Of a stretch of DNA of 64,000 nt, positions 42,045 through 62,467 are shown piece by piece. Below the pieces are notes generated by a model. That model made no database searches and had not been told where the DNA came from. It saw only the letters and a list, made by a program, of their open reading frames with translations. Every line of letters starts with the position of its first letter. Within the stretch, counting starts at the first letter, position 1. The stretch comes from Pseudomonadota bacterium. Lineage in GTDB: Bacteria; Pseudomonadota; Alphaproteobacteria; Dongiales; Dongiaceae. The stretch covers positions 62,001-126,000 of the forward strand of contig JACPDN010000007.1 in NCBI GenBank assembly GCA_016183985.1, read 5' to 3'. The position numbers were made by a program, and so were the translations under genes.

Positions 42045-43241
42045 TCAGGCCCGATATGCGCGACGCCAGTGCGTGAGTGCATAGATGGCGCCGCCTGCCA
42101 GCAAGCCCCAGAACGCCCCGCTGATCCCGAAGAAGGTGAGGCCGGATGCGGTGACGATGAAGGTGATGATCGCCGCTTCGCGGTCTTTGAGGTCCGTAAC
42201 AGCACCAAGAAGCGACGAACCAAGCGCCCCCAGCAGCGCCAGTCCGGCCACGGCCTGAATTAGGACCGGCGGTGCCGCGCTGATAAAAGCGGTGGCGGCA
42301 CCGGCACAGAGACCGAAGATCACGTAGAAAATGCCACAGATGATCGCGGCCCAGTAGCGACGATCGGGATCGTGATGTGCATCGGGCCCGGCGCAGAGAG
42401 CCGCTGTGATAGCGGCGAGATTTACGGCATGACCGCCAAAAGGCGCCGATAGAAGGCTGAAGACGCCCGTGACACTGAAGAGTGGCCCCGGATCCGGTCG
42501 GTAACCGTTGACGTTGAGGACGGCGATGCCGGGAATGTTCTGCGAGGCCATGGTCACGATGAAGAGCGGCAAGGCAATGCCGATCATGGCCGAGAAATCG
42601 AATTGCGGCGCAATAAACACCGGCTGCGGCCATAGCGCATTCATGTCGAGATGGCTGACATCGGTCGTTACGGCAATAATGCCGACTGTCACGATCACCG
42701 CGGCCGGCACCGCCAGCAGGCGCTTCCATTTGGCGACCAGCGCCCAGGTCACGACAATCGCAAGGCCGTAATAGTGAGGTTCAGCGGCAATCGCCTTTAC
42801 CGGGGCGAAGCAGAGCGTCAGCAGAACACCCGCCAGCATGGCGTTGGCGAGTGGTGCCGGAATGGCAGCGACTGCCCGGCCCAGGGGTTTCCATAATCCG
42901 GCGATGACGATGAGCAGGCTGGAAATGAGGAAAGCGCCAACGGCACTCGCGAACCCGCCAGCCGGTGCCGCGGTCGATGCCAAAAGAGCCGCACCCGGCG
43001 TCGACCAGGCAATGCTGATCGGCTGGCGCTTCTTCAACGAGAGAACGATGCCGCAGACACCCATGGCGATCGAAAGCGCCATCAGGCCGGAAGCCGCCTC
43101 AATCTGGCTGGCGCCAACGGCGGTCAGGCCCTGGATGATGACGGCGAAAGAAGAAGCAAAGCCGACAAAGGAGGCCAGCAGCCCCGCCGAAAAGGTCTCG
43201 ATCGAGGGGCCGTGCTTTGCCCCGGTCGTTTGCTGATCCAT
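42045..43241 (-). CDS. BenE-type benzoate/H+ symporter family protein
   Basis: A 398-residue membrane protein with about eleven to twelve helices. Family features are STPGAALL near 80, PLANAMLAGVLLTLCFAP near 130, MASQNIPGIAVLN near 235 and PFGGHAVNLAAITAALC near 275. BenE proteins import aromatic acids. It follows the ferredoxin reductase gene by 75 bases and is the last gene of the aromatic-type operon, which suggests that the route feeds on, or releases, an aromatic acid (inference). The start at 43241 (MDQQTT) is chosen over 43280. Confidence 0.88.
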   Translation of the reverse strand: MDQQTTGAKHGPSIETFSAGLLASFVGFASSFAVIIQGLTAVGASQIEAASGLMALSIAMGVCGIVLSLKKRQPISIAWSTPGAALLASTAAPAGGFASAVGAFLISSLLIVIAGLWKPLGRAVAAIPAPLANAMLAGVLLTLCFAPVKAIAAEPHYYGLAIVVTWALVAKWKRLLAVPAAVIVTVGIIAVTTDVSHLDMNALWPQPVFIAPQFDFSAMIGIALPLFIVTMASQNIPGIAVLNVNGYRPDPGPLFSVTGVFSLLSAPFGGHAVNLAAITAALCAGPDAHHDPDRRYWAAIICGIFYVIFGLCAGAATAFISAAPPVLIQAVAGLALLGALGSSLLGAVTDLKDREAAIITFIVTASGLTFFGISGAFWGLLAGGAIYALTHWRRAYRA

Positions 43242-43316
43242 CGCCTCGAGTCGCCCGCTGGTTGCCGCGGTTGGCGACAATGTGACATTCGGGCCGGTTC
43301 GTAAAGGCTTGGAACC

Positions 43317-44534
43317 TTAGACGAATATGGCCTTCAAATCCGAATTGGGGTCGGCGACGACGGCCGGATCGGCGCTTTTCCCCGCTTCGAGGGCTTTCTT
43401 GCCGAGCGCATAGGCCAGGGCCTCGTTCATCGCATCGATAGCGATAAGGCGCCCGGCCTTGAAATACCAGATCGATTGGGTGCCCGGCCGCTTGCCGGGG
43501 CGGAAGACCGTGCTGTCATAGCCGCGATTGAGGCCGGCGATCTGCAGCTTGATGTCGTATTGATCGGACCAAAACCAGGGCTTCGGGTCGTAATCCTTGG
43601 TCTCGCCCATGATGGCAGCCGCCACATGCTCGGCCTGGTCGATGGCGTTCTGCACCGATTCAAGCCGCGTGCGCTCACCGCGCCACGGGAAGTTCGCACA
43701 ATCACCAGCCGCAAAGACATGGGGATCGCTCGTGCGGCCCTGGCCGTCCACCCAGATACCGGCATCGACAGCAATGCCCGCGTCTTTCGCCAAATCGTCA
43801 TTGGGCAGGATTCCGATGCCGACGATGGCGACATCCGCCGGCAGGAAACTGCCGTCGCTCAACTCGGCGCCGGTCAGGCGGCCGCTTTCGCCGACGAGTT
43901 TGGCCAATCCCGTCTTCTCGCGAATGATAACGCCGTGGGATTGGTGCAGGTTGCGGAAGAAGTCCGACGTGGGTGCTGCTGCAACGCGCTGCAAGATGCG
44001 GTCGGCCATCTCAATGACGGTGACGCCCAAGCCCTTCTGCGCCGCCACCGCTGCAGCCTCGAGGCCGATATAGCCGCCGCCGATCACCAGGAGCTTCGCC
44101 CCCGGTTTCAGCGTCGGTGCGATCGCATCGGCATCGGCAAGATCACGCACGGTATGGACACCGGCAAGATCACCGCCGATCGAAGCCGGCAGGCGACGCG
44201 GCCGCGACCCGGTGGTGAGCACAAGATCCCGATAGTGCAGCCGCGCGCCGTCGCCCAGTGCCACCTCGCGCGTCTCCGGGTGGATCGAAGCCACCCGCGC
44301 CCCCAGCATCAGATCGATCTTTTCTTCCTGATACCAGCTGAGTGGCCGCACGAAGAGGCGTTCCAGCGCCAATTCGCCGGAAACGTATTTCTTGGAGAGC
44401 GGCGGACGCTGGTAGGGCACGGCCTTCTCTTCCCCGATGATGACGAGCGGACCGTCATAGCCGAGCGCCCGAAGCTTCGCCGCACAAGACGCGCTAGCCT
44501 GGCCAGCACCGACGATGACGATCGGTTCGCTCAT
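43317..44534 (-). CDS. NAD(P)H:ferredoxin reductase (FAD, putidaredoxin-reductase type)
   Basis: A 405-residue flavoprotein with N-terminal FAD motif VIVGAGQASASCAAKLR, then PYQRPPLSKKYVSGE, a second dinucleotide site LLVIGGGYIGLEAAAVAA near 150 for NAD(P)H, and GIGILPND followed by HVFAAGDCANFP (FAD-binding GD) near 275. This is the pattern of reductases that feed 2Fe-2S ferredoxins of P450 or dioxygenase systems. It follows the ferredoxin gene by 12 bases, and a P450 gene lies two genes further upstream, so the three form a complete class I electron chain. Confidence 0.92.
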   Translation of the reverse strand: MSEPIVIVGAGQASASCAAKLRALGYDGPLVIIGEEKAVPYQRPPLSKKYVSGELALERLFVRPLSWYQEEKIDLMLGARVASIHPETREVALGDGARLHYRDLVLTTGSRPRRLPASIGGDLAGVHTVRDLADADAIAPTLKPGAKLLVIGGGYIGLEAAAVAAQKGLGVTVIEMADRILQRVAAAPTSDFFRNLHQSHGVIIREKTGLAKLVGESGRLTGAELSDGSFLPADVAIVGIGILPNDDLAKDAGIAVDAGIWVDGQGRTSDPHVFAAGDCANFPWRGERTRLESVQNAIDQAEHVAAAIMGETKDYDPKPWFWSDQYDIKLQIAGLNRGYDSTVFRPGKRPGTQSIWYFKAGRLIAIDAMNEALAYALGKKALEAGKSADPAVVADPNSDLKAIFV

Positions 44535-44546
44535 GGTACTACGCCC

Positions 44547-44864
44547 TTATATCTGCGGGACGCGCAGGACGATGCCGTCCAATTCCTCGGTCGCCACGAT
44601 CTGGCAGGAAAGGCGGCTGCTCTCCTTGCGTTCGGCCGTCGTGATCTCGAGCATGTCGTTTTCCATCTCGCCAGGCTTGCCGGTCTTGGCGGCCCAATCT
44701 GGCTCTACATAGACATGGCAGGTGGCACAGGAAAGGCAGCCGCCGCATTCGCCGATGACGTTCGGCACGTTGTTGGCGACCGCCGCCTCCATCAGATTAT
44801 GACCGACGGCAACTTGGGCGCTGATTTCGCGCCCGTCCGCCAGGATCCAGGTGACTTTGGGCAT
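44547..44864 (-). CDS. 2Fe-2S ferredoxin, adrenodoxin/putidaredoxin type
   Basis: A 105-residue ferredoxin with cluster ligands in GECGGCLSCATCHVYV (Cys-x5-Cys-x2-Cys, counting the Cys after GE) and a fourth Cys in RLSCQIVA about 35 residues later. This spacing is that of P450-type ferredoxins rather than plant-type ones. It would carry electrons from the adjacent reductase to the P450 of the operon. Confidence 0.93.
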   Translation of the reverse strand: MPKVTWILADGREISAQVAVGHNLMEAAVANNVPNVIGECGGCLSCATCHVYVEPDWAAKTGKPGEMENDMLEITTAERKESSRLSCQIVATEELDGIVLRVPQI

Positions 44865-44885
44865 TTCGCCTTCCCCACTCGCTGC

Positions 44886-46175
44886 CTAGATGAAGTTGAT
44901 ATAATAGTCGCGCAGGGCATCGCCATCGAGGCCCGCCACGCGTTCGATTTCGTGACGCTTCACGAAAACATGGTTTTCGACCAGCCCTTCGCTCACTGCC
45001 GCGACAAGTGCCTTGTCCGCTTCCAGCGCGTCAAGAGCACCGCCCAGATTTTCCGAGACACCGTCCTTGGCGTCATGCGTTTCCAGACAGTCCGCCGTCT
45101 CGGCCGGGGCCAGATCATAGTTCCCGACAAACCCCAAGCGAGCAGCCTGCAGGATGGCGGCGACGGTCGTATAGGGATTGGCGGCACCATCCGCCATACG
45201 GTGTTCGATGCGGGATTTGGCGCCACCTTCCGCAGAGAGCCGCGTGGTAACGCCACGGTGATCCACACCCCAATTGCGCCAGAACCCTGAAAGACTTGCT
45301 GGTTTCAGGCGGTCATAGGAATTCACAGTCGGGGCGATCAGTCCGGCCATGCCGGCATGATGCTGCATCAGGCCAGCGATGCAACCGCGCGTCAGCGCCG
45401 GCATTTGTTCCGGAACCGTCGCGTCGCCCACGGCATTCTTGCCGGCCTTATCGGCAAAGCTGAAATTGACGTGCATGCCATTGCCGGCCAGATTCAGGAT
45501 CGGCTTGGGCATGAAGGTCAATAGCACGCCATGCTCCAAGGCCACTTCGCGCGCCAGCAAGCGAAACAGGAAAATGTCGTCGACCGCCTTCAAGGCCTCA
45601 TCATAAGTGAGCGTGAACTCGAATTGTGGCGAGTCATATTCCGAGGTGAAGCAGTCGATGCGGAAGCCGGCCGCCGTGGCCTTCTCCCAGATCCTGTCGG
45701 TAAAACCCACCGGATCGGTGAAGGGGCCGGTCGAATAGACGAAGGCGCCCGGCGTGTCATAGGGCACCCATTTCCCTTCCGCATTGCGCACGAAGGCATA
45801 GGCCTCAAGCTCAATGCCGACCTTCGGGCTGAAGCCCAGCTTATTCCAATCGGCAATCGCCCGCTTCAAGGCGCCACGGCCGCAGAGCGGCAACGGATTG
45901 CCCTGCCCGTCATATTGATCGGCGATGACGACCTTGGTGCCGGGTTGCCAACCTTCGCGAATGTCCGCCGCCTTATAGACGGCATCGTAATCCGGCAATC
46001 CTTCCAGCATCTTGGAACCGGGTGCCGGGATGAGATCCTTGGCATAGCTCACTGCGTAGATGCCGATACAGAAGCGGGAAGAACTGTCGACCATCTTCGA
46101 CGCCGGCAGATATTTGCCGCGCGCCAGGTTGAGGTGGTCGCAGAAGAGAAGTCGCAGCCTTTCGCCGCTCGCCAT
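44886..46175 (-). CDS. Glutamine synthetase-like ligase (likely gamma-glutamyl-amine synthetase)
   Basis: A 429-residue protein with the catalytic half of glutamine synthetase: GIELEAYAF near 122 (Glu ligand), the GNGMHVNFSF His near 235, NSYDRLKP near 290 and RIEHRMADGAANPY near 325. The N-terminal beta-grasp region is short, starting MASGERLRLLFCDH. Its place inside an aromatic catabolic operon, rather than beside nitrogen-control genes, suggests that it ligates glutamate to an amine, as GS-like enzymes do for anilines, polyamines and ethanolamine. The amine is not known. Confidence 0.85.
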   Translation of the reverse strand: MASGERLRLLFCDHLNLARGKYLPASKMVDSSSRFCIGIYAVSYAKDLIPAPGSKMLEGLPDYDAVYKAADIREGWQPGTKVVIADQYDGQGNPLPLCGRGALKRAIADWNKLGFSPKVGIELEAYAFVRNAEGKWVPYDTPGAFVYSTGPFTDPVGFTDRIWEKATAAGFRIDCFTSEYDSPQFEFTLTYDEALKAVDDIFLFRLLAREVALEHGVLLTFMPKPILNLAGNGMHVNFSFADKAGKNAVGDATVPEQMPALTRGCIAGLMQHHAGMAGLIAPTVNSYDRLKPASLSGFWRNWGVDHRGVTTRLSAEGGAKSRIEHRMADGAANPYTTVAAILQAARLGFVGNYDLAPAETADCLETHDAKDGVSENLGGALDALEADKALVAAVSEGLVENHVFVKRHEIERVAGLDGDALRDYYINFI

Positions 46176-46205
46176 GATGAAGTCTCCCAGACTAAGCGTT
46201 ATTTC

Positions 46206-47468
46206 TTAATGTGCCTTGATGGTGACCGGCAGGCGCTTGATGCCGCCGATGAAGTTCGAGCGCAGGAATTCGTGTTCGCCGGCCTGTTCGATCGACTTTA
46301 CGCGCTTCACCAACTCCTGCAGCAGGATGCGCACCTCGAGCCGCGCCAGCCACATGCCGAGACAGACATGCGGCCCGCCTTGGCCGAACGCCACATGCCG
46401 GTTCGGCGTGCGCAACAGGTCAAGCTCGAAGGGATTCTGGAACACCTCATCGTCGCGATTGGCGGAGATGAACCACATGATGACCTTGTCGCCGGCTTTC
46501 ACCTCTTTGCCGTGCAATTCGAAATCACGCGTCGCCGTGCGACGGAAATGCATGGTAGGTGACGCCCAGCGGATGAACTCGTCAGGTGATGTTTCCCACA
46601 CATTGTTGTCGCCGGCTTTGAGTTGCTCCATCAATTGTGGGCGTTGGCAAAGGGCATAGAGCGAAGCGGCAATCGAATACCGCGTCGTGTCGTTGCCGGC
46701 GGCCACCAGCAGGCAGAAGAAGTTGCGGAATTCCGTCTCGCTGATGACATTGCCATGGGCGTCGGGCTGCAGGATGAGATGCAGAACCCCGGTCGTGTCG
46801 CCCTTGGCCTGCTTGTCGCGCATCAGCTTCTTGGCGTATTCATAAAGCTCGGCGCCCGCCGGTGAGCGGAACGGCATCAGGCGGTAAGCGTCGGTATCGA
46901 CCTTGTCGAGCACCAGGCTGGTGAATTCCGGGTCGGTATTGGCGATGAGCTGATCGCCCTTTTCCACCAGCCAATCGAGATCTTCATCCGGGGTGCCGAG
47001 GATCTGCCCCAGCATGCGCATCGGCAACTGCCGCGCAATGTCCTTGGTGGCGTCGAAGGAACCGCGTGCCAGCACGTCGTCCAGGATGCTGTCGCAGATG
47101 GTACGGATCTGCTGGTCGAATTGCGCAACAACGGGCTTCGAGAAGGCCTTGGCCACCAGCACGCGGGTGCGCGAGTGCTCGGGCGGATCGGTTTCCTGGA
47201 ATGTACGGCGGGCGAGGTATTCCTCGTAGGTCTGATCCTCCATGCGGATGCCCCGGGCGGAACTCAACAGTTCGAAATTCTTGTTGAGATCCATGATGTC
47301 GGCATGGCGGGTGATGGACCAGAAACCCTTGCCACCCTGCATCTCGCTCCAGGACATGGGATCCTCGCGCCGGAGACGCGCAAAGGTATTGTGCGGCGCG
47401 CCGCTCAGAAATGCATCGTGGCTGGAGAGATCGGCATGGCCGTCATCTACTGGCTTGAAGCTGGTCAT
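46206..47468 (-). CDS. Cytochrome P450 (class I, bacterial)
   Basis: A 420-residue soluble P450. I-helix LLVAAGNDTTRYSIA near 255 has the normal acid-alcohol pair, the K-helix ExxR lies in PDEFIRWASP near 300, then HFRRTATRDFELHG, and the heme loop is FGQGGPHVCLGMWLARLE near 365 with the Cys ligand. Its ferredoxin and reductase are encoded two and three genes downstream. The pattern resembles the CYP123/125/142-like branch, but the substrate cannot be assigned; ring or O/N-dealkylating oxidation upstream of ring cleavage is the contextual guess. Confidence 0.93.
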   Translation of the reverse strand: MTSFKPVDDGHADLSSHDAFLSGAPHNTFARLRREDPMSWSEMQGGKGFWSITRHADIMDLNKNFELLSSARGIRMEDQTYEEYLARRTFQETDPPEHSRTRVLVAKAFSKPVVAQFDQQIRTICDSILDDVLARGSFDATKDIARQLPMRMLGQILGTPDEDLDWLVEKGDQLIANTDPEFTSLVLDKVDTDAYRLMPFRSPAGAELYEYAKKLMRDKQAKGDTTGVLHLILQPDAHGNVISETEFRNFFCLLVAAGNDTTRYSIAASLYALCQRPQLMEQLKAGDNNVWETSPDEFIRWASPTMHFRRTATRDFELHGKEVKAGDKVIMWFISANRDDEVFQNPFELDLLRTPNRHVAFGQGGPHVCLGMWLARLEVRILLQELVKRVKSIEQAGEHEFLRSNFIGGIKRLPVTIKAH

Positions 47469-47497
47469 AGACGTTAGACTCCCATTCGTTTCTTTTT

Positions 47498-48910
47498 TCA
47501 GGCCTCGGCGCTATGGCGCAAAGCCCGCCACAAGGCCTCGACATCCTGTTGTTCGGTCAAATGTGCCCCCAGCGACAGGCGGACCATCCAGCGCCCGTCC
47601 AGTTGCGCGGGTGTGACATATGCCTCGCCGCTGAGGTTGACTTTTTCGGACCATTCCAGGGTATGACGATCAAGCGCTTCACCGCTGAGGCCCGCAGGCT
47701 CATGGCGCACGCAGATCGTCTGTAGCGGCACGGGTGCCAGCACGCGCCAGCCCGGCGCGGCTTCGATTGCCTTCAGCAGCCATTGTGCCTGGGCAAGATC
47801 ACGGCGCAGGCGCGTCTGTAGGCCTTCGACACCCTGTTCGCGGATCAGAATCCACAGCTTGAGAGCGCGGAATTTGCGCCCCAGCGGCAGGCCCCAATCG
47901 CGATAGTTCTTCACCTCGGCATCGGCATTGCTGCGCAGATAAGAAGGATTGGTCGACATGACCCGCACCAGATGCTGCGGATCGCGCACGTAATAGAGCG
48001 AGCAATCGAAGGCAACGCCGAGCCATTTATGGGGATTGGTGACGATGGAATCAGCGGCCTCGACGCCATCCCACATCCAGCGGCATTCCGGCAGGATCAT
48101 GGCCGAGCCAGCCATGGCGGCATCGATGTGAAGCCAGAGGCCGAACTCCTGTGCGATCTTCGCGATCTCCTTCACCGGGTCGATCGCGGTGGTCGCAGTG
48201 GTACCGACAGTAGCAACGACGGCACAGGGCTTGCGGCCCGCCACCAGATCGGCCTCGATCGCCGTACGCAGGGCCGCCGGCTGCATGGCAAAGGCGGCAT
48301 CGGTCGCGACATGGCGGATGTTGTCCCGGCCGAAGCCGGCCAGCAGCGCCGCCTTGTCGACCGAGGAATGGCTCTGCGCGGAACCGTAGACGATGAGCGG
48401 CTTTTCTTCCGCCTGCAAGCCGCCCTTATTGGCACCGTAACCGGTGCTACGTTCGCGGGCAGAGAGCAGCGCCACCAGCGTGCAGCTCGATGCTGTATCC
48501 TGGATGACGCCGGACCAGGCGTCGCTTAAGCCCAGCATGCGACGCATCCAATCGGTCACCACTTCCTCGACTTCGGTCAAGGCCGGACTCGACGCCCAGG
48601 AAAGACCCAGCACGCCAAGCCCCGTCGCTAGGTAATCGCCAAGAACACTCGACAGCAGGCTGTTTGATGGAAAGTAGGCGAAGAAGCGCGGATGCTGCCA
48701 ATGGGTGATGCCCGGCATGATCAGCTTTTCGACGTCGGCAAGGAGATTGTCGATGGATTCCGCCCGCTGTGGCGGATCGATCGGAAATCCGGCCTTGATC
48801 TCGCCGGGTTTGGCTTGGGTCGTAATCGATTGGCCAGGCGCCCGGGTCCGGTAATCCGCGACCCAGTCGATCAATCGATGACCCAGTTTGCGGAATTCCT
48901 CGGGCGTCAT
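47498..48910 (-). CDS. PLP-dependent aromatic-L-amino-acid decarboxylase family
   Basis: A 470-residue group II decarboxylase. It has HWQHPRFFAYFPSNSL near 70, SAQSHSSVDKAALLAG near 180 (His stacking on PLP), HIDAAMAGSA near 255 and the PLP Lys in TNPHKWLGVAFDCS near 290. These are the hallmarks of DOPA/tyrosine/tryptophan decarboxylases. It releases CO2 from an aromatic amino acid to give an aryl-ethylamine, or performs the related oxidative deamination. Its last-but-first-codon overlap with the ADC-like gene (ATGA, 48907-48910) shows coupling. Confidence 0.92.
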   Translation of the reverse strand: MTPEEFRKLGHRLIDWVADYRTRAPGQSITTQAKPGEIKAGFPIDPPQRAESIDNLLADVEKLIMPGITHWQHPRFFAYFPSNSLLSSVLGDYLATGLGVLGLSWASSPALTEVEEVVTDWMRRMLGLSDAWSGVIQDTASSCTLVALLSARERSTGYGANKGGLQAEEKPLIVYGSAQSHSSVDKAALLAGFGRDNIRHVATDAAFAMQPAALRTAIEADLVAGRKPCAVVATVGTTATTAIDPVKEIAKIAQEFGLWLHIDAAMAGSAMILPECRWMWDGVEAADSIVTNPHKWLGVAFDCSLYYVRDPQHLVRVMSTNPSYLRSNADAEVKNYRDWGLPLGRKFRALKLWILIREQGVEGLQTRLRRDLAQAQWLLKAIEAAPGWRVLAPVPLQTICVRHEPAGLSGEALDRHTLEWSEKVNLSGEAYVTPAQLDGRWMVRLSLGAHLTEQQDVEALWRALRHSAEA

Positions 48911-49704
48911 TTGATTACCGGTACCAATGACTTGCCGCCGTTCCAGACGACGCCGATCTGCCGGTAATAGCCGCCGATGATCTCCTTCGGCTTCAGATGC
49001 GATAGTTCCTCGGTGGGCGAATCGAACAAGGCGAAGTGATCGACCGAGGCGGCGAAGGGCTGGCCGCCCTCGAATTTGGCGCCTGACGATTCGATAAGCT
49101 CGGCATGGGCATCGCCCTTACCATCAATGGCCGGCAGCCAGCGGTGATGCGCCATCGGATGGCCATTGACGAAGCCGTTCTTCTCGGCCGGGCCCTTCAA
49201 GGTGATGGTCGCTTCGGCGAGGCGCCGGTCGGCCGCCGCCAGGGTCGCCCCGAACTTGCCGCCGGCCGCCACCTGCGGCGCCGGTGCAAAAGGATGCGGG
49301 CGCGTCATATGGATCGAGCCGAATTTCTTCGGATAGCCCTGGTGGATGCCGCGCAGCATCGCGAAATCCTTGTCGACCCAAATATAGATGCAGCGCGAAT
49401 AGGTGCGGCCTTCGAAGCTGCAGCGCACGACGGCGAAGGCCTCCTTGTATTGCGCACGCACCGGATCGAGCATTTCCTCATAGGCGCCACCGCAGGATTG
49501 CCAATCGGCCCAGATAAGCGCCACGGCACCGGGGTCTTCCGCCGCCAGTGTGAGTGGGGCCGGCAGGATGTCGGCGATGAGCTTCGGGTCGGTGCGATAT
49601 TCGACGGTCAAGAGATCGCCGGCGTAATACCAGGGTGGCGGTGGCAATAAGCTGGCACTGCCCGTCACCGAGCGAGGGTAGAAGAAGCCTTTTTGCTGGG
49701 TCAT
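48907..49704 (-). CDS. Acetoacetate decarboxylase family protein
   Basis: A 265-residue ADC-superfamily protein beginning MTQQKGFFYPRSVTG. The catalytic region reads GIHQGYPKKFGSIHM near 120: the Lys-Lys pair matches the Schiff-base Lys and its pKa-lowering neighbour in acetoacetate decarboxylase. IGGYYRQIGVVW ends the domain. True ADC is rarely placed in meta-cleavage operons, so it may decarboxylate or hydrate a ring-cleavage 2-oxo acid. The start at 49704 is preceded by a purine-rich GAGGGAAG; a longer frame from 49863 would overlap the FAH gene. Confidence 0.87.
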   Translation of the reverse strand: MTQQKGFFYPRSVTGSASLLPPPPWYYAGDLLTVEYRTDPKLIADILPAPLTLAAEDPGAVALIWADWQSCGGAYEEMLDPVRAQYKEAFAVVRCSFEGRTYSRCIYIWVDKDFAMLRGIHQGYPKKFGSIHMTRPHPFAPAPQVAAGGKFGATLAAADRRLAEATITLKGPAEKNGFVNGHPMAHHRWLPAIDGKGDAHAELIESSGAKFEGGQPFAASVDHFALFDSPTEELSHLKPKEIIGGYYRQIGVVWNGGKSLVPVIK

Positions 49705-49726
49705 GACCTTGCTTCCCTCTCTCTGC

Positions 49727-50581
49727 TCAGGCGCCAGGCTTCTTCGGCGCGCGAATACCGCGGAATTCCCAATCGCCACCGAGTGCGGTCGAAAGAACTT
49801 CCTCGGATTCTGTCGGCTGCGCGCCAAGCTCGGTGCGGATTTCCGCCGGACCTTCGACGACACGATTGGAAAGACGCCCCAAACCCTCGACCTCGACCTC
49901 GACCAGATCGCCGGGCTGCACGGGGCGCGAATTGGCCGGCGTGCCGGAGAGCAGCACGTCGCCCGGCTCCAGCGTGATGTTGCGGGCGATGTCGGCCACC
50001 AGATAGTTCATGTCCCAGGTCATCTCGGACGTGTTGCCATCTTGGCGCAAGACGCCGTTCACATAGGTGCGCAGGTATTTGTTGTGGAAATCCCACCCCG
50101 TGACGAAACCCGGCCCGAGCGGACAGAGCGTATCGCTGCCCTTCACGCGCAGCATGGAACCGGCATCGGTGTCGCGGAAATCATGCAGGCCGAAATCATT
50201 GGCGACCGTATAGCCGGCGATATAGGCGCCGGCTTCGGCCTGGCTGATATTGCGAGCGCGCTTGCCGATGACGATGGCAACCTCGCCCTCATAATTCAGC
50301 CATTTGCAGTTCTTCGGGCGCACGATCTCGCCCCAATGGGAATTGAGTGATGAGGTAGGCTTCTGGAAATAGGTCGGTGTCGCCGAGAGCTTGATCTGGA
50401 ATTCATGCACGCGGCTCACATGGTTGAGGTGCACGGCGATGATCTTGCCCGGCTGCACGGGCGGCAGATGGATGGCGTCCTTGATCGCGACACGGCGGCC
50501 ATCGCGCGCCACCAATTCTTCGCCCTGACGCTCGGTCTCAACGACGGCGCCACCCAGCAGAATGCGGCGATATTCGGTCAT
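49727..50581 (-). CDS. Fumarylacetoacetate hydrolase family (HpaG/HpcE-like)
   Basis: A 284-residue FAH-family protein with the metal-binding Glu/Glu/Asp set: NYEGEVAIVIGKRARN near 110 and NDFGLHDFRDTD near 145, then the LEPGDVLLSGTPANS motif near 220. In homoprotocatechuate degradation, relatives isomerise and decarboxylate the oxidised ring-cleavage product. Other relatives are acylpyruvases or oxaloacetate decarboxylases. It follows the extradiol dioxygenase gene by about 28 bases. The start at 50581 (MTEYRR) is chosen over 50644. Confidence 0.9.
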   Translation of the reverse strand: MTEYRRILLGGAVVETERQGEELVARDGRRVAIKDAIHLPPVQPGKIIAVHLNHVSRVHEFQIKLSATPTYFQKPTSSLNSHWGEIVRPKNCKWLNYEGEVAIVIGKRARNISQAEAGAYIAGYTVANDFGLHDFRDTDAGSMLRVKGSDTLCPLGPGFVTGWDFHNKYLRTYVNGVLRQDGNTSEMTWDMNYLVADIARNITLEPGDVLLSGTPANSRPVQPGDLVEVEVEGLGRLSNRVVEGPAEIRTELGAQPTESEEVLSTALGGDWEFRGIRAPKKPGA

Positions 50582-50609
50582 GTTCTTCTCCCCTGTGGCG
50601 CGCGTCCGT

Positions 50610-51509
50610 TTACTCGGCGGCCTTGTTTCGCTTCGTCCAGCCACCGGCCGGGCGGTCGAACCAGATATGCACCTGACCGGTGCCGATCGAATTTTCGTAA
50701 TCGCTGAAGAGGCGACCGGCAGCGGTAAAGTCGCGCTCGCCCAATGCCGCCGCCATCATCACGTAATGGCCGAAATTGGCTTCCGGCTTGAACTTCAGGA
50801 ATTCCGGCATCGCATTGAGGACACGCGCATGATCCCCGGCCTTGAGCCAGTCGATGCGCTCGAGGTCCGCGGCGGCGTGTTCCGAGCTGAAGATATGCTG
50901 AACACCGGCCGCTTCATGGGCCCGCAGTTTCTGCAGCGGCCAGAATTTATGGCTCATGGCACCGGAAGCCAGCAGCAGCACTTTCTTTCCACTGTCGGCG
51001 ATCGCCTCACCCAGCGCCCGGCCGACGCGCAGGAAGTCCTCGGTCTCGCCGGTCTGAGCGCAACTCATCGACAGCCAGGCCTCTTTGCTTTTCTGCAAAT
51101 AGTGCGCGACGTTGACGGTCGCATATTGGATCGGCAGGCATGGATCGGCGATGGGCGTGATCCAGGTGCCGTTCTTCGCAGCCTTGCTCGCCACCAACTC
51201 GGCAAAATCGGGATCGCCAGGCAAATCATAAGGAACCTGGCTCATGCCGCGTGGCAATTCGTCCGACGTATACTTGCCGCTGCGCCGCTCGGCTGACGTG
51301 ATCACGAATTCGACCGTCGTGAACCAGTGTGAATCCAGCACCACGACGACGTCGTAATCGAGCTTCTCCAGCACCTCGCGCTTCAGCCGATGCAGGCCTT
51401 CGACCAGGCTGAAATCCTTGCCTTCATTGAGCTCGTGCCGGATCTTTTCCGGCAGCATGATGGTGGGCACATGGGCGATGAGCCCGCAGCCGACAACTTC
51501 GCCCATCAC
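50610..51509 (-). CDS. Class III extradiol dioxygenase (homoprotocatechuate 2,3-dioxygenase HpaD-like)
   Basis: A 299-residue LigB-superfamily protein. It follows the HpaD/HpcB plan: HVPTIMLPE near residue 13 (first iron His), VVVLDSHWFTTVEFVI near 57 (second His), YTSDELPRGM near 80, FASG-like LLLASGAMSHKFW near 175 and the C-terminal GTGQVHIWF. These enzymes open catechols carrying an acidic side chain with O2 at a ferrous centre. Its start overlaps the end of the aldehyde dehydrogenase gene by four bases. The side chain of its catechol substrate may differ from homoprotocatechuate. Confidence 0.9.
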   Translation of the reverse strand: MMGEVVGCGLIAHVPTIMLPEKIRHELNEGKDFSLVEGLHRLKREVLEKLDYDVVVVLDSHWFTTVEFVITSAERRSGKYTSDELPRGMSQVPYDLPGDPDFAELVASKAAKNGTWITPIADPCLPIQYATVNVAHYLQKSKEAWLSMSCAQTGETEDFLRVGRALGEAIADSGKKVLLLASGAMSHKFWPLQKLRAHEAAGVQHIFSSEHAAADLERIDWLKAGDHARVLNAMPEFLKFKPEANFGHYVMMAAALGERDFTAAGRLFSDYENSIGTGQVHIWFDRPAGGWTKRNKAAE

Positions 51510-52963
51510 TTCCTCCAGCCATGCGGCGCAAAGACCGCGTTCTTGACGTCACAGTAGAAGTCGAACGACCACGTCCCGCCCTCGCGACCGATCCCTGATT
51601 TGCCGTTGCCGCCGAAGGCCTGCCGCAGGTCGCGCACGAAGAAGCAGTTGTTCCACACCAAGCCCGCATTGACCTGGGCCGTCACGCGCTCGGCGCGCGT
51701 CTCATCGCCGGTCATGACGACGGCAGCCAGGCCGTATTCGGTGTCATTCGCCATGGCGATCGCCTGCGCCTCGTCCTTGAAGGATTGCATGCAAAGCACC
51801 GGACCGAATACTTCCTCACGTAAAATCTCCGACTCATTGCCGGGATCTGCGAAGAGCGTGGGGCGGAAGTAGAGGCCGCCGAGATCCGCATTGGGTCCGC
51901 CGCCGATCAGCGGCTTCAGCCCCGATGCCTTGGCACGCTCGACAAAGCCGGCAACGCGTTCAAAATGCGGCCGGCTGATCTGGGGACCGATATCATTGGC
52001 CTCGTCGCGCGGATCGCCTTGGCGGATATTCTTGGCCTTCTCGATGAAGGCCTCCTGGAATTTCGCGCGGATACTTTCCTCGACCAGGATACGGCTGCCG
52101 GCAAGGCAAACCTGGCCCGCATTGTCGTATTGGCCGATCGCCGTATTGACCGCGAGGTCGAAATCGCTGTCGGCAAAGACGATGAAAGGCGATTTGCCAC
52201 CAAGCTCAAAGGAAAGCGGCACCAGATTGGGGGCGGCCGCAGCGGCGATCGTGCGCGCCGTCGGCACCGAACCGGTAAAACTCAGGCGCCGGACCTTAGG
52301 GTTACGCGTCAGGGCGGCACCCGCATTGCGGCCCAGACCCTGCACGACATTGAAAACACCTGCCGGAAGGCCCGCTTCCGCGGTAATGTCAGCGAGGAGC
52401 GACGCCGTGAGCGGCGCCCATTCCGGCGGTTTATAGACAACGGTGCAGCCTGCGGCCAGGGCCGGCGCGATGCGCCAAGTGCCCAGCATCAGGGGCGCAT
52501 TCCATGGCGTAATGATGCCGGCAACGCCGCTTGGGTCGTAAGAGATGTGGTTGCGATGGCCACGCACATCGAAATCGGGATGATCGAGCTGCGTCAGCCA
52601 ATCGGCAAAAAAGCGGAAATTCATGGCAACGCGCGGCATGACCCCACGCCGGTGCGAGCGCAACAGCGAGCCATTGTCGCGCGTCTCGACCACGGCCAGC
52701 TGTTCGACCTTAGCCTCAATGAGATCGGCAATCTTATGAAGATAGGCGGCCCGTTCGGCCGGGCTGGTGCGGCGCCAGGTCTGAAAGGCCTTGTGGGCGG
52801 CATTCACCGCCGCGTCGACTTCCCCTTCGCCGCCCGCCGCCAGTTCGGCAATCGGCTGCTCGTCGATCGGAGAAATACTCTTGAAGCTCTCGGCGCTGCC
52901 GACCCGAGCGCCGCCAATCCAATGGCGGCCATCGATTTCGACACCTTCGACCAGCGACCTCAT
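51506..52963 (-). CDS. Aldehyde dehydrogenase (HpaE-like semialdehyde dehydrogenase)
   Basis: A 485-residue NAD(P)-dependent ALDH with ITPWNAPLMLGTWR near 140, LSFTGSVPTARTIA near 215, the catalytic Glu in FELGGKSPFIV near 245, the catalytic Cys in NAGQVCLAGSRILVEE near 280 and EEVFGPVLCMQSF near 380. The order ALDH-extradiol dioxygenase-FAH is that of homoprotocatechuate (hpa) operons, where it oxidises carboxymethyl-hydroxymuconate semialdehyde. The start at 52963 has GGGGAG eight bases upstream; ATG at 52981 would lie almost on the operator. First gene of the ten-gene operon. Confidence 0.9.
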   Translation of the reverse strand: MRSLVEGVEIDGRHWIGGARVGSAESFKSISPIDEQPIAELAAGGEGEVDAAVNAAHKAFQTWRRTSPAERAAYLHKIADLIEAKVEQLAVVETRDNGSLLRSHRRGVMPRVAMNFRFFADWLTQLDHPDFDVRGHRNHISYDPSGVAGIITPWNAPLMLGTWRIAPALAAGCTVVYKPPEWAPLTASLLADITAEAGLPAGVFNVVQGLGRNAGAALTRNPKVRRLSFTGSVPTARTIAAAAAPNLVPLSFELGGKSPFIVFADSDFDLAVNTAIGQYDNAGQVCLAGSRILVEESIRAKFQEAFIEKAKNIRQGDPRDEANDIGPQISRPHFERVAGFVERAKASGLKPLIGGGPNADLGGLYFRPTLFADPGNESEILREEVFGPVLCMQSFKDEAQAIAMANDTEYGLAAVVMTGDETRAERVTAQVNAGLVWNNCFFVRDLRQAFGGNGKSGIGREGGTWSFDFYCDVKNAVFAPHGWRK

Positions 52964-52987: not shown

Positions 52988-53029
52988 TTCGACGTCGAAT
53001 AATTATGCGAAGCACTCTCGGCAAGTCAA
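52988..53029 (-). promoter_or_regulatory. Promoter and MarR-type operator of the aromatic operon
   Basis: On the minus strand, -35 TTGACT (53024-53029), a 16-base spacer and -10 CATAAT (53002-53007) are followed at once by the perfect palindrome TTCGACGTCGAA (52988-52999). The palindrome would sit at the transcription start. A one-mismatch copy lies in the same position in the divergent permease promoter. The MarR protein gene lies between the two sites. Confidence 0.75.
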
Positions 53030-53053: not shown

Positions 53054-53677
53054 TTATTCGTCTTCCGCGATGCCGTCGAGCTCGATGATGGTGGCAAGGA
53101 TCAGGCGGATAGCCTCGGTCGCGGCCTGAATCTGCTTGGGCGACAGACGCTCGACGATGCGTGTTTCCTCCGCATTGAATTTCGGGAAGAGGCCGCTGAT
53201 GACCTCCGCCCCGCTCGCGGTCAGATTGACGATGACGAGGCGGCGTTCCAATTCATTGGTGCGCCGTCGGACCAGTTTGCGCGCCTCCAGCATGTTAAGG
53301 ATCGAGGAGAGCGTGCTCTTGGCAACGCCCGCTTCCGCCGCGAGTCGCCGGGTTTCCAGCTCGCCATAGATCCACAGGCACCACAGCGTCACGAAGGCAG
53401 ACCAGTGCAAATCGGCATCTTTCAGGATCGCACGTTCGAAATGGTCGCGGATGAAGCCGGAGGCGCGGTGGATGTTGGAGACCAGCGCCATCGATTCGAG
53501 ATTGACGCGCAAGCCCGCGACCCGCTTTTCGCCCAACACCTCGGCCAATGGTTTCGCTTGGCGCTTCGCAGGCGCTTTACGCGGTGCAGCAGAGCCAGCA
53601 GGCGATTTTGATTGGGGAACGGCGGCTCCCTTCGCGGGTGCAGCAGCACGGGCTGGCAGTCGTCGGTCTTTGGTCAA
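53054..53677 (-). CDS. MarR family transcriptional regulator
   Basis: A 207-residue regulator. The first 45 residues are an Ala/Pro/Lys-rich tail (PAGSAAPRKAPAKRQAKPLA), then a MarR winged helix: LAAEAGVAKSTLSSILNMLE near 118 as recognition helix and VRRRTNELERRLVIVNLT near 138 as wing with its Asp/Glu-Arg pattern. MarR proteins bind palindromes as dimers and are released by phenolic ligands. Placed between the two copies of the TTCGAC-RTCGAA site, it is the likely controller of the aromatic operon and the permease. Confidence 0.9.
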   Translation of the reverse strand: MTKDRRLPARAAAPAKGAAVPQSKSPAGSAAPRKAPAKRQAKPLAEVLGEKRVAGLRVNLESMALVSNIHRASGFIRDHFERAILKDADLHWSAFVTLWCLWIYGELETRRLAAEAGVAKSTLSSILNMLEARKLVRRRTNELERRLVIVNLTASGAEVISGLFPKFNAEETRIVERLSPKQIQAATEAIRLILATIIELDGIAEDE

Positions 53678-53793: not shown

Positions 53794-53833
53794 TTGCCAC
53801 GGATTTTCATTCGCGTTATCGTTCGACATCGAA
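53794..53833 (+). promoter_or_regulatory. Promoter and MarR-type operator of the permease gene
   Basis: -35 TTGCCA (53794-53799), 16-base spacer, -10 TTATCG (53816-53821), then TTCGACATCGAA (53822-53833), one base off a perfect palindrome. The wider text ATCGTTCGACRTCGAAT is shared with the site at 52988. A leader of about 140 bases precedes the gene start. Confidence 0.68.
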
Positions 53834-53972: not shown

Positions 53973-55415
53973 ATGACCGACACTAGTTCCACCAATAAAC
54001 TGCAGCGTGACGCCCTTGGCGTTGCTGCCGTGACTTTCTTCGTCGTCTCCGCTGCGGCGCCGCTCACGGCGGTCGCAGGCGGCTATCCGATCGCCATGCT
54101 GCTCGGCAACGGCGTCGGCGTGCCCTTGGCCGTGCTGCTGGTGATGGCGATCCTGCTCATCTTCTCGGTCGGCTATACGACCATGGCGCGGCACATCTCC
54201 AATGCCGGCTCGTTCTATGCTTTCACGACCCGGGGTCTCGGCGGCGTCATGGGCGGTGCCGCCGCCTATATCGCCGTCCTCGCCTATAACGCCATGCAAG
54301 TCGGCCTCTATGGCCTGTTCGGCGCGGTCGCGGCCGGTACTGTTGCGGCATTGAGCGGCGGCTCCGTTGACCTGCCCTGGTGGGTCTGGTCGCTAGCCTC
54401 CTGGGTGCTGGTCGGCATCTTCGGTTATATGAAGATCGATCTTTCGGCCAAGGTGCTCGCTATCCTGGTCTGCGCCGAATACATCATCGTCGTCGTGCTC
54501 GACCTTGCCATTATCGGCAATGGCGGGCCGGAAGGGGTCAGCACGGTGAGCTTCACGCCGACCGCCTTCGCGACTGGCGAGCCCATCATCGGCATGCTGC
54601 TCTGTTTTGCTGCCTTCATGGGCTTCGAAGCGACGACGATCTACAGCGAAGAAGCGCGCGATCCGGAACGTACCGTGCCGCGGGCGACCTATCTCTCGGT
54701 CCTCGTTATCGGCATCTTCTATGCGTTTTCGACCTGGTGCATGGTGATCGGCACCGGTGCATCGAAGCTGATGGAAACCCTGGGCGGCCTCGCCGACCCG
54801 ACCACCTTCATCTTCGTCCTCTCCGATCAATATGTCGGCAGCTGGCTCACCACCGTCATCAGCCTGCTGCTGATCTCCAGCGTGTTCGCCGCCCTGCTCG
54901 CCTTCCACAACGCCGCTGCGCGTTACTTCTACGTGCTCGGCCGCGAAGGCCTGCTGCCGGCGGGTCTCGGGCGGACCCATGACGAGCATAAGAGCCCGCA
55001 TGTGGGCTCCGTCCTGCAGACGGTTCTGGGTGTCGTCATCCTCGCCATCTTCATCATCACGGCGCAGGATCCGGTGTTGGGTCTCTTTGCCTGGCTCACC
55101 AACCTCGCCACCTTGGGCGTCATCACCTTGATGGCCATCGTCTCCTTCGCGGTGGTGGTTTTCTTCCGGCGCAATGGCCAGTTAGCGCCCAATGCGTTCA
55201 AGACCCTGATAGCCCCGCTGGTGGCCGCCGTGCTGCTCGCCATCATCGCCTATCAGGTCGTGACGCATTTCGACGTACTGACCGGCGCCTCGCCGGCACT
55301 TGCGATCGGCCTGCCGATCCTGGTCCCGATCGCCGGATTGCTCGGCGCGCTCGTGGCCTACCAGTTGAAAAAATCGAGCAATTCCCGGTTTGCCCAGCTG
55401 GGCGCCGGGCAGTAA
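53973..55415 (+). CDS. APC superfamily amino acid/amine permease
   Basis: A 480-residue inner-membrane transporter with about twelve helices. Typical APC motifs are ALGVAAVTFFVVSAAAPLTA in helix 1, NAGSFYAFTTRGLGG near 75 and FEATTIYSEEARDPERTVPR near 220. Such carriers import amino acids or amines. A strong AGGAGGGG lies before the ATG. The frame is open far upstream, but that part is not coding. Shared regulation with the aromatic operon suggests that it brings in the amine or amino acid substrate (inference). Confidence 0.92.
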   Translation: MTDTSSTNKLQRDALGVAAVTFFVVSAAAPLTAVAGGYPIAMLLGNGVGVPLAVLLVMAILLIFSVGYTTMARHISNAGSFYAFTTRGLGGVMGGAAAYIAVLAYNAMQVGLYGLFGAVAAGTVAALSGGSVDLPWWVWSLASWVLVGIFGYMKIDLSAKVLAILVCAEYIIVVVLDLAIIGNGGPEGVSTVSFTPTAFATGEPIIGMLLCFAAFMGFEATTIYSEEARDPERTVPRATYLSVLVIGIFYAFSTWCMVIGTGASKLMETLGGLADPTTFIFVLSDQYVGSWLTTVISLLLISSVFAALLAFHNAAARYFYVLGREGLLPAGLGRTHDEHKSPHVGSVLQTVLGVVILAIFIITAQDPVLGLFAWLTNLATLGVITLMAIVSFAVVVFFRRNGQLAPNAFKTLIAPLVAAVLLAIIAYQVVTHFDVLTGASPALAIGLPILVPIAGLLGALVAYQLKKSSNSRFAQLGAGQ

Positions 55416-55466: not shown

Positions 55467-55502
55467 TCTCCATCTCAATTTCTTGCGCTGTGGAGCGTGA
55501 TC

Positions 55503-58366: not shown

Positions 58367-58470
58367 GAAATCTCTTCCAATCGTCAAACAATTAGAGCCG
58401 GAAACGGCCCCAAAACTCCGCGCAACATAGCGAGCGGAGTGACGGCTGGTAAGGCCCAATAACGGGCGGA

Positions 58471-59520: not shown

Positions 59521-59730
59521 GCGACACCGTCCGCCATGGCCTTGGAAGATCATCGGAATGGGTCAGGAATGATGGCATGCCCCCGTAGATGCTGCAAGGC
59601 AACAAGGCATCTCTGTCAAACACATCGCCCTTTCGGTCAAGCCCAGCGGGCGTCGACTGATTAATCTGCGGGCAAATTCGCCAAATTCTGCCCCAAAATT
59701 GATCGGAGCGGAATTGACCAGGAGACAATC

Positions 59731-62436: not shown

Positions 62437-62466
62437 CCCCCAGGTTCTAGCCCCAGGTTCTGACCC
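62427..62466. repeat. Three tandem 13-14-base repeats at the end of the small-subunit gene
   Basis: CAGGTTCTAGCCCC (62427-62440), CAGGTTCTAGCCC (62441-62453) and CAGGTTCTGACCC (62454-62466) run from the last codons of the small-subunit gene to the base before the next start codon. The first copy contains that gene's TAG. The array replaces a normal ribosome site. Confidence 0.85.
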
Positions 62467-62467
62467 A

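Follow-up and report, generated by a model that had tools for sequence, protein, structure and literature searches.

What does a bacterium do with an operon that joins a P450 electron-transfer chain, a glutamine-synthetase-like (GS-like) ligase, an aromatic-amino-acid decarboxylase and ring-cleavage enzymes? The operon lies in a window of 64,000 nucleotides (the whole stretch of DNA analysed) from a soil-type member of the Dongiaceae. By the window's open reading frame list and translations, its ten reading frames are all intact and lie on the minus strand, from 42045 to about 52963. Family names come from Pfam and NCBIfam profile matches. The genes and the sites around them are as follows.

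42045..43241 (-): BenE-type transporter, optional; ATG at 43241; PF03594; TIGR00843 298 bits, exceeding the cut-off of 203
43317..44534 (-): ferredoxin-NAD(+) reductase; PF07992 and PF14759
44547..44864 (-): [2Fe-2S] ferredoxin; PF00111
44886..46175 (-): GS-like ligase, proposed γ-glutamyl-amine synthetase; PF00120; best PDB match 9qur
46206..47468 (-): P450-1, proposed ring hydroxylase of a γ-glutamylated arylamine; PF00067
47498..48910 (-): PLP aromatic-amino-acid decarboxylase, DOPA-decarboxylase-like, optional module; PF00282; PDB 7xin 729.5 bits
48907..49704 (-): acetoacetate-decarboxylase-like (ADC-like) enzyme, kin of MppR, 4zbo and 5upb; PF06314; proposed hydratase-aldolase
49727..50581 (-): FAH-family isomerase/decarboxylase, like the C-half of HpaG; PF01557; TIGR02303 209 bits; PDB 1gtt 231.6 bits
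50610..51509 (-): LigB-type extradiol dioxygenase, divergent HpaD_Fe kin; PF02900; TIGR02298 141.9 bits
51506..52963 (-), alternative start 52981: aldehyde dehydrogenase (ALDH), HpaE-like, CHMS dehydrogenase kin; PF00171; HpaE 535.7 bits
52988..52999: operator 1, core TTCGACGTCGAA; two bases behind the operon's -10-like CATAAT
53002..53029 (-): promoter-like site of the operon; TTGACT-16-CATAAT, 10 of 12
53054..53677 (-): MarR-family regulator; best curated match HpaR, 42 bits against a cut-off of 121
53822..53833: operator 2, TTCGACATCGAA; one-base overlap with the -10-like TATCGT of the divergent unit
53973..55415 (+): APC-family permease for amino acids or amines, transcribed away from MarR; PF00324 and PF13520
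55497..56684 (+): P450-2, GcoA-like aromatic O-demethylase type; 8u09 293 bits, 5ncb (GcoA) 288 bits

The ten genes are closely packed. Two pairs overlap by four bases (ALDH/dioxygenase and ADC-like/decarboxylase), and the gaps are 29 bases for decarboxylase/P450, 30 for P450/GS-like, 21 for GS-like/ferredoxin, 12 for ferredoxin/reductase and 75 for reductase/BenE. Those of dioxygenase/FAH and FAH/ADC-like are 28 and 22 with ATGs at 50581 and 49704, or 25 and 19 with starts one codon upstream. The class I P450 chain is complete, with a P450 carrying the heme Cys motif, a [2Fe-2S] ferredoxin and an FAD reductase. The ten-gene operon with short gaps or overlaps described in an earlier note is borne out by the intact frames, the gap values and the conservation of order; its range was drawn too short, as the MarR gene, the divergent permease gene and the P450-2 gene are parts of the same larger unit.

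The order MarR-ALDH-DIOX-FAH-ADC-(DDC)-P450-GS-Fdx-FdR is found in all 11 Dongiaceae loci that can be read whole, i.e. the window and ten fetched loci; a twelfth (L034) is truncated where its contig stops. Since the order, apart from the decarboxylase, is the same in 11 of 11, the gene association is not due to chance. Permease homologues are likewise present in all 11, three being truncated where the stretch ends, and the MarR gene is kept throughout. P450-2 is found in 11 of 12 GS-positive and in none of five GS-negative genomes of the order. The decarboxylase is present in four complete loci and absent from seven, which counts against the pathway proposed below, and BenE was seen in four of 12 loci within the stretches fetched. 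Thus, the search for the gene order in other genomes that the earlier note had proposed finds the association conserved; of its ten-gene set the P450 and the GS-like ligase stand as the constant core, and the decarboxylase and BenE become optional parts. A rearranged set (dioxygenase, P450, GS, ALDH, ADC-like, FAH and ferredoxin) occurs in L021, which is named Novosphingobium, and in L049 and L050, two genomes of one genus. Statements on neighbourhoods rest on tblastn or record annotation (two Tritonibacter records carry no annotation); gene calling based on ORF length, or on GC content at the codon positions, was wrong for some loci and was not used for them. A scan of genome contigs that used a single sequence turned up just two loci.

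In each of the 11 loci a palindromic predicted operator stands ahead of both transcription units, with 0 to 2 mismatches, and in the window's own 4.6 Mb genome the exact 17-mer has no copy beyond these two. The operon and the divergent permease/P450-2 unit probably constitute one MarR-controlled, switchable regulon. Promoter-like and terminator-like sites in the region are at chance level, as might be expected of unrelated neighbours or separate transcription units with no common pathway. This is extremely improbable in the face of the conserved order, the retention of the set where it is rearranged and the operator common to both units.

P450-1 and the GS-like gene are neighbours wherever both are readable, including loci where no P450-2 was seen, and the identities of the two proteins are correlated over 22 loci (r = 0.954). 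They are a co-inherited conserved core. The heme-cysteine and I-helix motifs of P450-1 are present in 22 of 22 homologues. Its nearest solved relatives are of the CYP125/CYP268 type, which are not known ring hydroxylases, and this is a point against the best explanation.

The best PDB match of the GS-like protein is glutamate-methylamine ligase (9qur), with which it shares SLSG. The flap Glu, presumably the ammonium-site Glu, is missing in 22 of 22 sequences, and motifs that we take to hold the metal-site residues are kept. Paralogues from the same genome also lack the flap Glu in the alignment (7/7), so its loss marks non-canonical GS-like proteins generally and not the P450-linked group. With a GS catalytic domain, metal-site residues and no ammonium-site Glu, the protein has the features by which γ-glutamyl-amine ligases (PuuA, glutamate-methylamine ligase, AtdA1) were recognized here, and it is proposed as a putative member of that group. 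The idea of a γ-glutamyl-protected intermediate, raised earlier, gains support from this ligase and from the comparative evidence.

P450-2 aligns with 8u09 and 5ncb over about 385 residues, its whole length; we assume that 8u09 is AgcA and that the GcoA/AgcA family is CYP255. AgcA O-demethylates 4-alkylguaiacols to 4-alkylcatechols, which are then meta-cleaved (excerpt of PMC13101465). A GcoA/AgcA pocket residue was considered as a substrate test and dropped, as there is an alignment gap in that loop. The GcoA-like character of P450-2 would suit a lignin-type pathway for alkylguaiacols and alkylcatechols, with ammonium assimilation as the sole task of the GS-like enzyme, but the absence of the flap Glu and the position of the GS-like gene next to P450-1 in every locus read, even where no P450-2 was seen, make such a pathway very unlikely.

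The enzymes of ring cleavage resemble those of the homoprotocatechuate (hpa) pathway, yet the HpaD-, HpaE- and HpaG-like proteins reach 141.9 of 316, 535.7 of 638 and 209 of 276 bits, all below the curated NCBIfam equivalog cut-offs. Because of this, a standard hpa trio is rejected; what survives of that earlier assignment is kinship to HpaE, HpaD and HpaG. The dioxygenase retains H13, H61 and E243 and shows fixed differences at 14 positions when compared with four true HpaD_Fe proteins. AphC of the Rhodococcus agc/aph pathway belongs to a different dioxygenase family. Curated-grade HpaD was found in none of 14 window-type genomes in one search and none of 13 in another.

The ADC-like enzyme aligns with PDB 4jm3 (MppR), 4zbo and 5upb at the lysine of GYPKK, which we take to be the Schiff-base Lys, and the motif is present in 14 of 14 homologues. 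All 14 loci with the divergent dioxygenase also have the ADC-like gene, which was not seen in the 14 stretches that carry either a true HpaD or the other kind of P450-GS pair. In eight such stretches, the neighbourhood of the true HpaD includes HpaH in six cases and HpaI in three. The window's operon contains neither, and has the ADC-like enzyme there. No HpaH or HpaI exceeds the cut-off in the window's own genome, nor in any control genome; the best own-genome matches (HpaH 112.9/351.5, HpaI 181.7/368.8 bits) are on another contig, and HpaI of L043, inside a true hpa operon, also falls just under it (338.9).

Eight other loci have the P450-GS pair together with a GATase (amidotransferase) and a class III aminotransferase (8/8), joined in seven by a PuuC-like ALDH. 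A tripartite transporter and Tm-1-like genes also occur in this locus type; they lie outside the proposed scheme and are counted against it, as is a search at 1e-15 that found no relatives of the Ruegeria-type GATase in 17 genomes of the order and had no positive control. A curated-grade homoprotocatechuate dioxygenase is present in all six searchable genomes with this locus type and lies beside the pair in two; the search took in six of the eight loci, the plasmid-borne Ruegeria and Tritonibacter loci being left out. VOC-type HpaD exceeds the cut-off in six of 372 genomes of the class, four of which have the other-type locus (4/4 vs 2/368; Fisher 1.9e-8, in a test that ignores phylogeny, G132 and G236 sharing a genus). 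This class background covers VOC-type HpaD and not HpaD_Fe. The LigB HpaD_Fe genes of G132 and G236 have no hpa neighbours in the stretches read, which speaks against the best explanation. HpaD is present without a GS match at 1e-90 in G344 and G373, and thus hpa does not need the P450-GS pair. In Ruegeria TM1040, paa genes adjoin the pair; a paa-linked phenylethylamine route was set aside, as the hpa link is broader.

The presence of homoprotocatechuate dioxygenase in all six genomes points to amines of the tyramine/dopamine type. The decarboxylase is closest to DOPA decarboxylase (PDB 7xin) and has the HKWLG lysine motif in 5 of 5 sequences; the DOPA decarboxylase of Pseudomonas putida is reported to be highly specific for L-DOPA (excerpt of PMC9048412). 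The comparison of genomes favours an arylethylamine (tyramine, dopamine or 3-methoxytyramine) over aniline-type amines. Of the aromatic amine or amino acid route first suggested, the arylethylamine form is retained, and the hpa link and the DOPA-decarboxylase-like module disfavour the aniline form. An aniline- or aminobenzoate-type amine, with its nitrogen on the ring and handled as γ-glutamylanilide, has some appeal: the aniline route combines an oxygenase with GS-like and GATase-like enzymes (excerpt of PMC4539516), BenE is present, and the dioxygenase is distantly similar to 2-aminophenol 1,6-dioxygenases (57 bits vs 77 for the homoprotocatechuate enzyme). Such a substrate is nevertheless distinctly unlikely given the association and the module just named, as well as downstream enzymes of the HpaE/HpaG kind, which suit a side chain of two carbons. 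In some members BenE hints at an aromatic acid as substrate, a further point against the arylethylamine pathway.

The computed gene content, order and conservation, the shared operator, the missing ammonium-site Glu and the homoprotocatechuate association are consistent with a MarR-controlled catabolic regulon for tyramine/dopamine/3-methoxytyramine-type arylethylamines, γ-glutamylated while the ring is oxidised and cleaved. On balance we consider this probable, if by no great measure; we infer the substrates, the order of steps, the position on the ring, the stage at which the cap comes off and the reaction of the ADC-like enzyme. The permease would import the amine, or an amino acid that the optional decarboxylase converts to it, and the GS-like ligase would join glutamate to the amine. 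P450-1, with ferredoxin and reductase, would put a second hydroxyl on the ring of the capped amine, and P450-2 might O-demethylate methoxylated analogues to the same catechol. The divergent LigB dioxygenase would then cleave the ring of the capped catechol where HpaD cleaves its own, and the cap may stop the amine from condensing or cyclising with the ring-fission aldehyde. Pyruvate and γ-glutamyl-4-aminobutanal would then result from the action of the ALDH, FAH and ADC-like enzymes, the last being a hydratase-aldolase that stands in for HpaH (hydratase) and HpaI (aldolase). The full form of the scheme, with ring cleavage wholly on capped intermediates, both hydration and retro-aldol cleavage by the ADC-like enzyme and entry into putrescine catabolism at γ-glutamyl-4-aminobutanal, is more tentative, a possibility that we would not call probable.

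Oxidative deamination might take its place: P450-1 would hydroxylate the carbon next to the nitrogen of the γ-glutamyl amide, giving arylacetaldehyde and glutamine, ALDH would form 3,4-dihydroxyphenylacetate, and the trio would be a diverged ordinary hpa branch. An ALDH gene does follow P450-GS in L021, L049 and L050, and comes after the ferredoxin gene in L047. One CHMS dehydrogenase also oxidises succinic semialdehyde (excerpt of PMC12718150), so one ALDH could serve two steps. This route leaves the GATase and the aminotransferase superfluous, yet both accompany the pair in all eight other-type loci; together with the low hpa scores and the fixed differences of the dioxygenase, this makes it rather unlikely.

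The capped pathway resembles hpa in its HpaD-, HpaE- and HpaG-like enzymes, in its regulator and in tyramine and dopamine as proposed sources. Tyramine and dopamine reportedly enter homoprotocatechuate meta-cleavage in P. putida U, and the upstream steps of the hpa route are a flavin hydroxylase and an amine oxidase, in place of which the window has the class I P450 and the GS-like ligase. As in the Puu/Pau polyamine pathway there is a γ-glutamyl cap, and the predicted product is an intermediate of the Puu putrescine route in the excerpts consulted, whereas the window's system is proposed to have an aromatic substrate and ring cleavage. The pip/mor operons (piperidine, morpholine) also pair P450, ferredoxin and reductase with an amine, but the substrate is a saturated heterocycle and we know of no ring-cleavage branch of the window's kind in them. 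A GS gene lies within the Gulosibacter set (excerpt of PMC9477822). In aniline oxidation of the AtdA1 type a GS-like ligase caps an aromatic amine before oxygenation, and the GATase of the other locus type adds to the likeness; the window has a P450 and an Hpa-like lower branch instead, and no aniline dioxygenase or GATase among its ten genes (Pfam).

Methanofuran synthesis differs in being biosynthetic, MfnD is not a GS, and the window's decarboxylase scores 66.5 bits, far short of the 299 required for MfnA. MfnA tyrosine decarboxylase and MfnD tyramine-glutamate ligase lead to γ-glutamyltyramine there (excerpts of PMC11365854 and PMC8141765), and thus the proposed capped amine exists in nature. 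The Rhodococcus agc/aph 4-alkylguaiacol pathway likewise has a P450 O-demethylase feeding an extradiol dioxygenase (excerpt of PMC13101465), but the window adds a putative γ-glutamyl ligase and a second P450.

Among the papers listed by searches of the open literature, none deals with a γ-glutamyl route for the catabolism of tyramine or dopamine and none describes a pathway with the present gene set, as the earlier note had supposed; Swit_4259 was found there only in a reference list. If correct, the scheme would offer a full substitute for amine-oxidase routes in handling tyramine, dopamine and their methoxylated analogues, producing no free arylacetaldehyde and no hydrogen peroxide. P450-GS gene pairs, and ADC-like proteins whose function is unknown, would gain a definite role, and the scheme would include a P450 that may hydroxylate a capped phenol. 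Vague annotations would become about six single-enzyme predictions. The gene set may reveal an undescribed bacterial use of tyramine-like aromatic amines. γ-Glutamyldopamine itself appears in a title on Aplysia in the reference list of PMC6454038.

All ten genes that the earlier note assigned to the minus-strand operon (ALDH, dioxygenase, FAH protein, ADC-like protein, decarboxylase, P450, GS-like ligase, ferredoxin, reductase and BenE) were found intact and co-directional, with spacings of 12 to 75 bases or four-base overlaps, and their family names are upheld by Pfam and NCBIfam. The first three had been described as an hpa-type trio. Their kinship to HpaE, HpaD_Fe (the LigB-type dioxygenase) and HpaG stands, but curated-grade membership does not, as each falls under its NCBIfam equivalog cut-off.

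Scores of the trio within the operon (42045–52963, minus strand)
ALDH, kin of HpaE: 535.7 bits, cut-off 638
Dioxygenase, kin of HpaD_Fe: 141.9 bits, cut-off 316
FAH protein, kin of HpaG: 209 bits, cut-off 276

No paper uniting these elements was found in searches of the openly accessible literature, in agreement with the earlier statement that no described pathway has this set. The gene combination is undescribed, and the pathway possibly includes a new enzymatic step. γ-Glutamyl capping has already been described for aniline (PMC4539516) and polyamines (PMC10606097), and γ-glutamyltyramine is known in methanofuran biosynthesis (PMC11365854, PMC8141765). The aniline system resembles the route proposed for the window, where a γ-glutamyl cap would be placed on the amine of tyramine, dopamine or 3-methoxytyramine. 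For cyclic amines, class I P450s are known from sets that include a GS gene (PMC9477822); the window's operon has a GS-like one. Meta cleavage of tyramine and dopamine via 3,4-dihydroxyphenylacetate appears in a title cited in PMC10606097.

The GS-like gene is rare in the class and phylum samples. It is present in 12 of 17 genomes of the window's order (E <= 1e-80), in 9 of 385 class genomes, of which five, the source genome (4.6 Mb, 16 contigs) among them, are of the same genus, and in 5 of 398 genomes of the phylum, again including the source genome (both E <= 1e-90). A search for the gene order in other genomes bore out the association: MarR-ALDH-dioxygenase-FAH-ADC-(decarboxylase)-P450-GS-ferredoxin-reductase is found in 11/11 complete loci, i.e. 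the window and ten fetched homologous loci, with a twelfth, L034, beginning within the P450 gene. Those close relatives that bear a name are Dongia MAGs (L022, L023), hence an assignment of the loci to Dongiaceae. Among complete loci the decarboxylase is limited to the window, L032, L035 and L039; BenE, within the stretches fetched for all twelve, is limited to the window, L032, L033 and L034. The dioxygenase, P450, GS, ALDH, ADC-like, FAH and ferredoxin genes are found in a different arrangement in L021, named Novosphingobium, and in L049 and L050, which represent two genomes of one genus. Retention of the set despite rearrangement is stronger evidence of joint function than gene order alone. 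Downstream of the operon, at 40547–41290 (minus strand), is a probable EF-hand-type repeat protein, so labelled from its translation, which is kept in L032, L033 and L034.

The operon P450 (P450-1) adjoins the GS-like gene in every locus where both are readable, and the pairwise identities of the two proteins correlate (r = 0.954 over 22 loci, which are not independent). The nearest solved structure to the GS-like protein is glutamate-methylamine ligase. In true GS the flap carries the Glu of the ammonium site. This Glu is absent from all 22 aligned GS-like sequences, which have SLSG or TLSG (19/22) or SMAG (3/22) at the position and retain the metal-site motifs. It is also missing in seven GS-like paralogues of the source genome within the alignment, and thus its loss marks a non-canonical GS-like protein and not an aromatic amine substrate. 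The nearest solved relatives of P450-1 are of CYP125/CYP268 type, which is counted against the proposed reading, as is BenE, which it leaves without a role.

The pair also occurs in a second type of locus. In all eight such loci (L020, L043–L048 and L051) it has GATase and class III aminotransferase genes for company, and no window-type dioxygenase was seen. A PuuC-like ALDH lies beside the pair in seven, with none seen in L045; the likeness was scored in L020, L043 and L047 and judged by similarity in the remaining loci. A true homoprotocatechuate operon adjoins the pair in L043 and L046. HpaD is over its cut-off in both, HpaE is over in L043, where it was scored, HpaH is over in L046 and slightly under in L043, and HpaI is slightly under in L043 and was not seen in L046. 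Given the GATase and aminotransferase, the simplest reading would be that the amine is capped, hydroxylated, uncapped, transaminated and oxidised to 3,4-dihydroxyphenylacetate, in which case it would be tyramine-like. TctA and TctC transporter genes are found in seven of the eight loci, the protein of L047 being assigned to the TctC family by Pfam. Six of the eight have Tm-1-like ATP-binding proteins, with none seen in L043 and L045.

All six searchable genomes among the eight loci have a curated-grade homoprotocatechuate dioxygenase, of VOC type in G132, G236, G323 and G358 and of LigB type in G132, G236, G603 and G604. In the fetched stretches, hpa genes surround the dioxygenase of G603, G604, G323 and G236 (VOC gene); no hpa neighbours were seen for the LigB-type genes in G132 and G236. 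VOC-type HpaD is over its cut-off in 6 of 372 class genomes, the four named here among them; its association with the second type of pair is 4/4 versus 2/368 (Fisher 1.9e-8, phylogeny ignored). G344 and G373 of the class sample have curated-grade VOC-type HpaD and no GS match at 1e-90; this occurrence of HpaD on its own is counted against the proposed reading. Genomes with the window-type operon have no curated-grade HpaD of VOC type (0/14, including G003, where the operon is cut) or of LigB type (0/13); the in-operon dioxygenases of these 13 reach 128 to 145 bits where the cut-off is 316. In the five GS-negative genomes of the order, no LigB-type match exceeds 21 bits. By this distribution the pair accompanies cleavage of the homoprotocatechuate type, for which a genome has either a separate hpa operon or a diverged branch of its own.

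A comparison of 14 in-operon dioxygenases with four true HpaD_Fe proteins shows that the former retain His13, His61 and Glu243, the iron ligands in this family. Fourteen positions fixed within each group separate the two (e.g. Lys10 to Leu). This fits an enzyme with HpaD chemistry unchanged and a different side chain on its putative substrate. For the ADC-like protein the nearest match is MppR (4jm3); further matches are 4zbo and 5upb, which we take to be Sbi_00515 and Swit_4259, aldol/dehydration enzymes and not decarboxylases. The GYPKK motif of the ADC-like protein is present in 14/14 homologues. The gene occurs with the divergent dioxygenase in 14/14 loci, and neither HpaH nor HpaI was seen beside it there; it was not seen in the 14 stretches that have either the second type of pair or true HpaD (L020, L043–L048, L051 and L064–L069). 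Eight stretches with true HpaD have HpaH in six cases and HpaI in three. On this pattern the ADC-like enzyme is proposed to perform hydration and cleavage of the last intermediate.

If its amine were free, the ring-fission aldehyde could close to a five-membered ring, as in extradiol cleavage of L-DOPA, and this would give the γ-glutamyl cap a purpose. By the hpa carbon count, replacement of the CH2COOH side chain by CH2CH2NH-Glu would lead to γ-glutamyl-4-aminobutanal instead of succinic semialdehyde. The former is given as a Puu intermediate in a figure legend of PMC10606097.

The decarboxylase scores 729.5 bits against 7xin, a solved DOPA decarboxylase that we take to be from P. putida. The P. 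putida enzyme is reported to be highly specific for L-DOPA (PMC9048412). Such a decarboxylase, which converts an amino acid to an arylethylamine, is well suited to supply the pathway. In L045 a PLP decarboxylase 41% identical to that of the window (L045:2496–3941) lies inside the P450-GS-GATase locus, decarboxylation being again paired with P450-GS. As to removal of the cap, a search that had no positive control found no Ruegeria-type GATase in the window's order, a result that is counted against the proposed reading. The window has a stand-alone GATase at 63160–63888 (plus strand), just downstream of an isochorismatase (62279–63163); it is of another kind, in that its best curated models differ from the ones matched by GATases next to P450-GS pairs.

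The unit extends past the ten genes: on the far side of the MarR gene lie an APC permease, divergently oriented, and another P450 (P450-2, 55497–56684). P450-2 is found in 11 of 12 GS-positive genomes of the order (missing in G005) and in none of five GS-negative genomes, one of which is only 68% complete (Fisher 0.001). In ten of these 11 genomes it shares a contig with the GS gene and lies within 10 kb of it; the exception is G003, where the genes are on separate contigs. With 293 bits to 8u09, presumably AgcA, and 288 to GcoA, P450-2 is by sequence akin to both. AgcA demethylates 4-alkylguaiacols to 4-alkylcatechols, which then undergo meta cleavage (PMC13101465). 3-Methoxytyramine would be a 4-substituted guaiacol of the type that AgcA demethylates.

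A palindrome with the core TTCGAYRTCGAA is present in the MarR-ALDH and MarR-permease intervals of 11/11 loci, with 0 to 2 mismatches. Within the window the core occurs once exactly and once with a single mismatch, both in these intervals, and seven times elsewhere with two mismatches, so lone 2-mismatch copies are weak evidence; the weight of the operator case is in the presence in both intervals of every locus. In the source genome a 17-base form matches exactly only at the two MarR-flanking sites. Ten more matches appear at two mismatches, one of them the second operator on the opposite strand, and a reversed-pattern control gives two matches. The first copy in the window sits behind the operon's -10-like element at a distance of two bases, and the second shares one base with the corresponding element of the divergent unit, a placement that fits repression. 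It should be pointed out that promoter-like sites in the region number 4, with 4.0 expected by chance, and therefore promoter support comes from position and not from score.

Two further loci lie beyond P450-2. At 59731–62010 (plus strand) a B12-type diol/glycerol dehydratase has its large and medium subunits in a single reading frame (PF02286, 688 bits; PF02288, 84 bits); a 783-aa minus-strand open reading frame opposite it has no Pfam or NCBIfam match. In the region 56738–59553 (minus strand), a 5-guanidino-2-oxopentanoate decarboxylase (785 bits, cut-off 500) has as its neighbour an AraC-type regulator that scores above the QhpR cut-off (332 versus 250).
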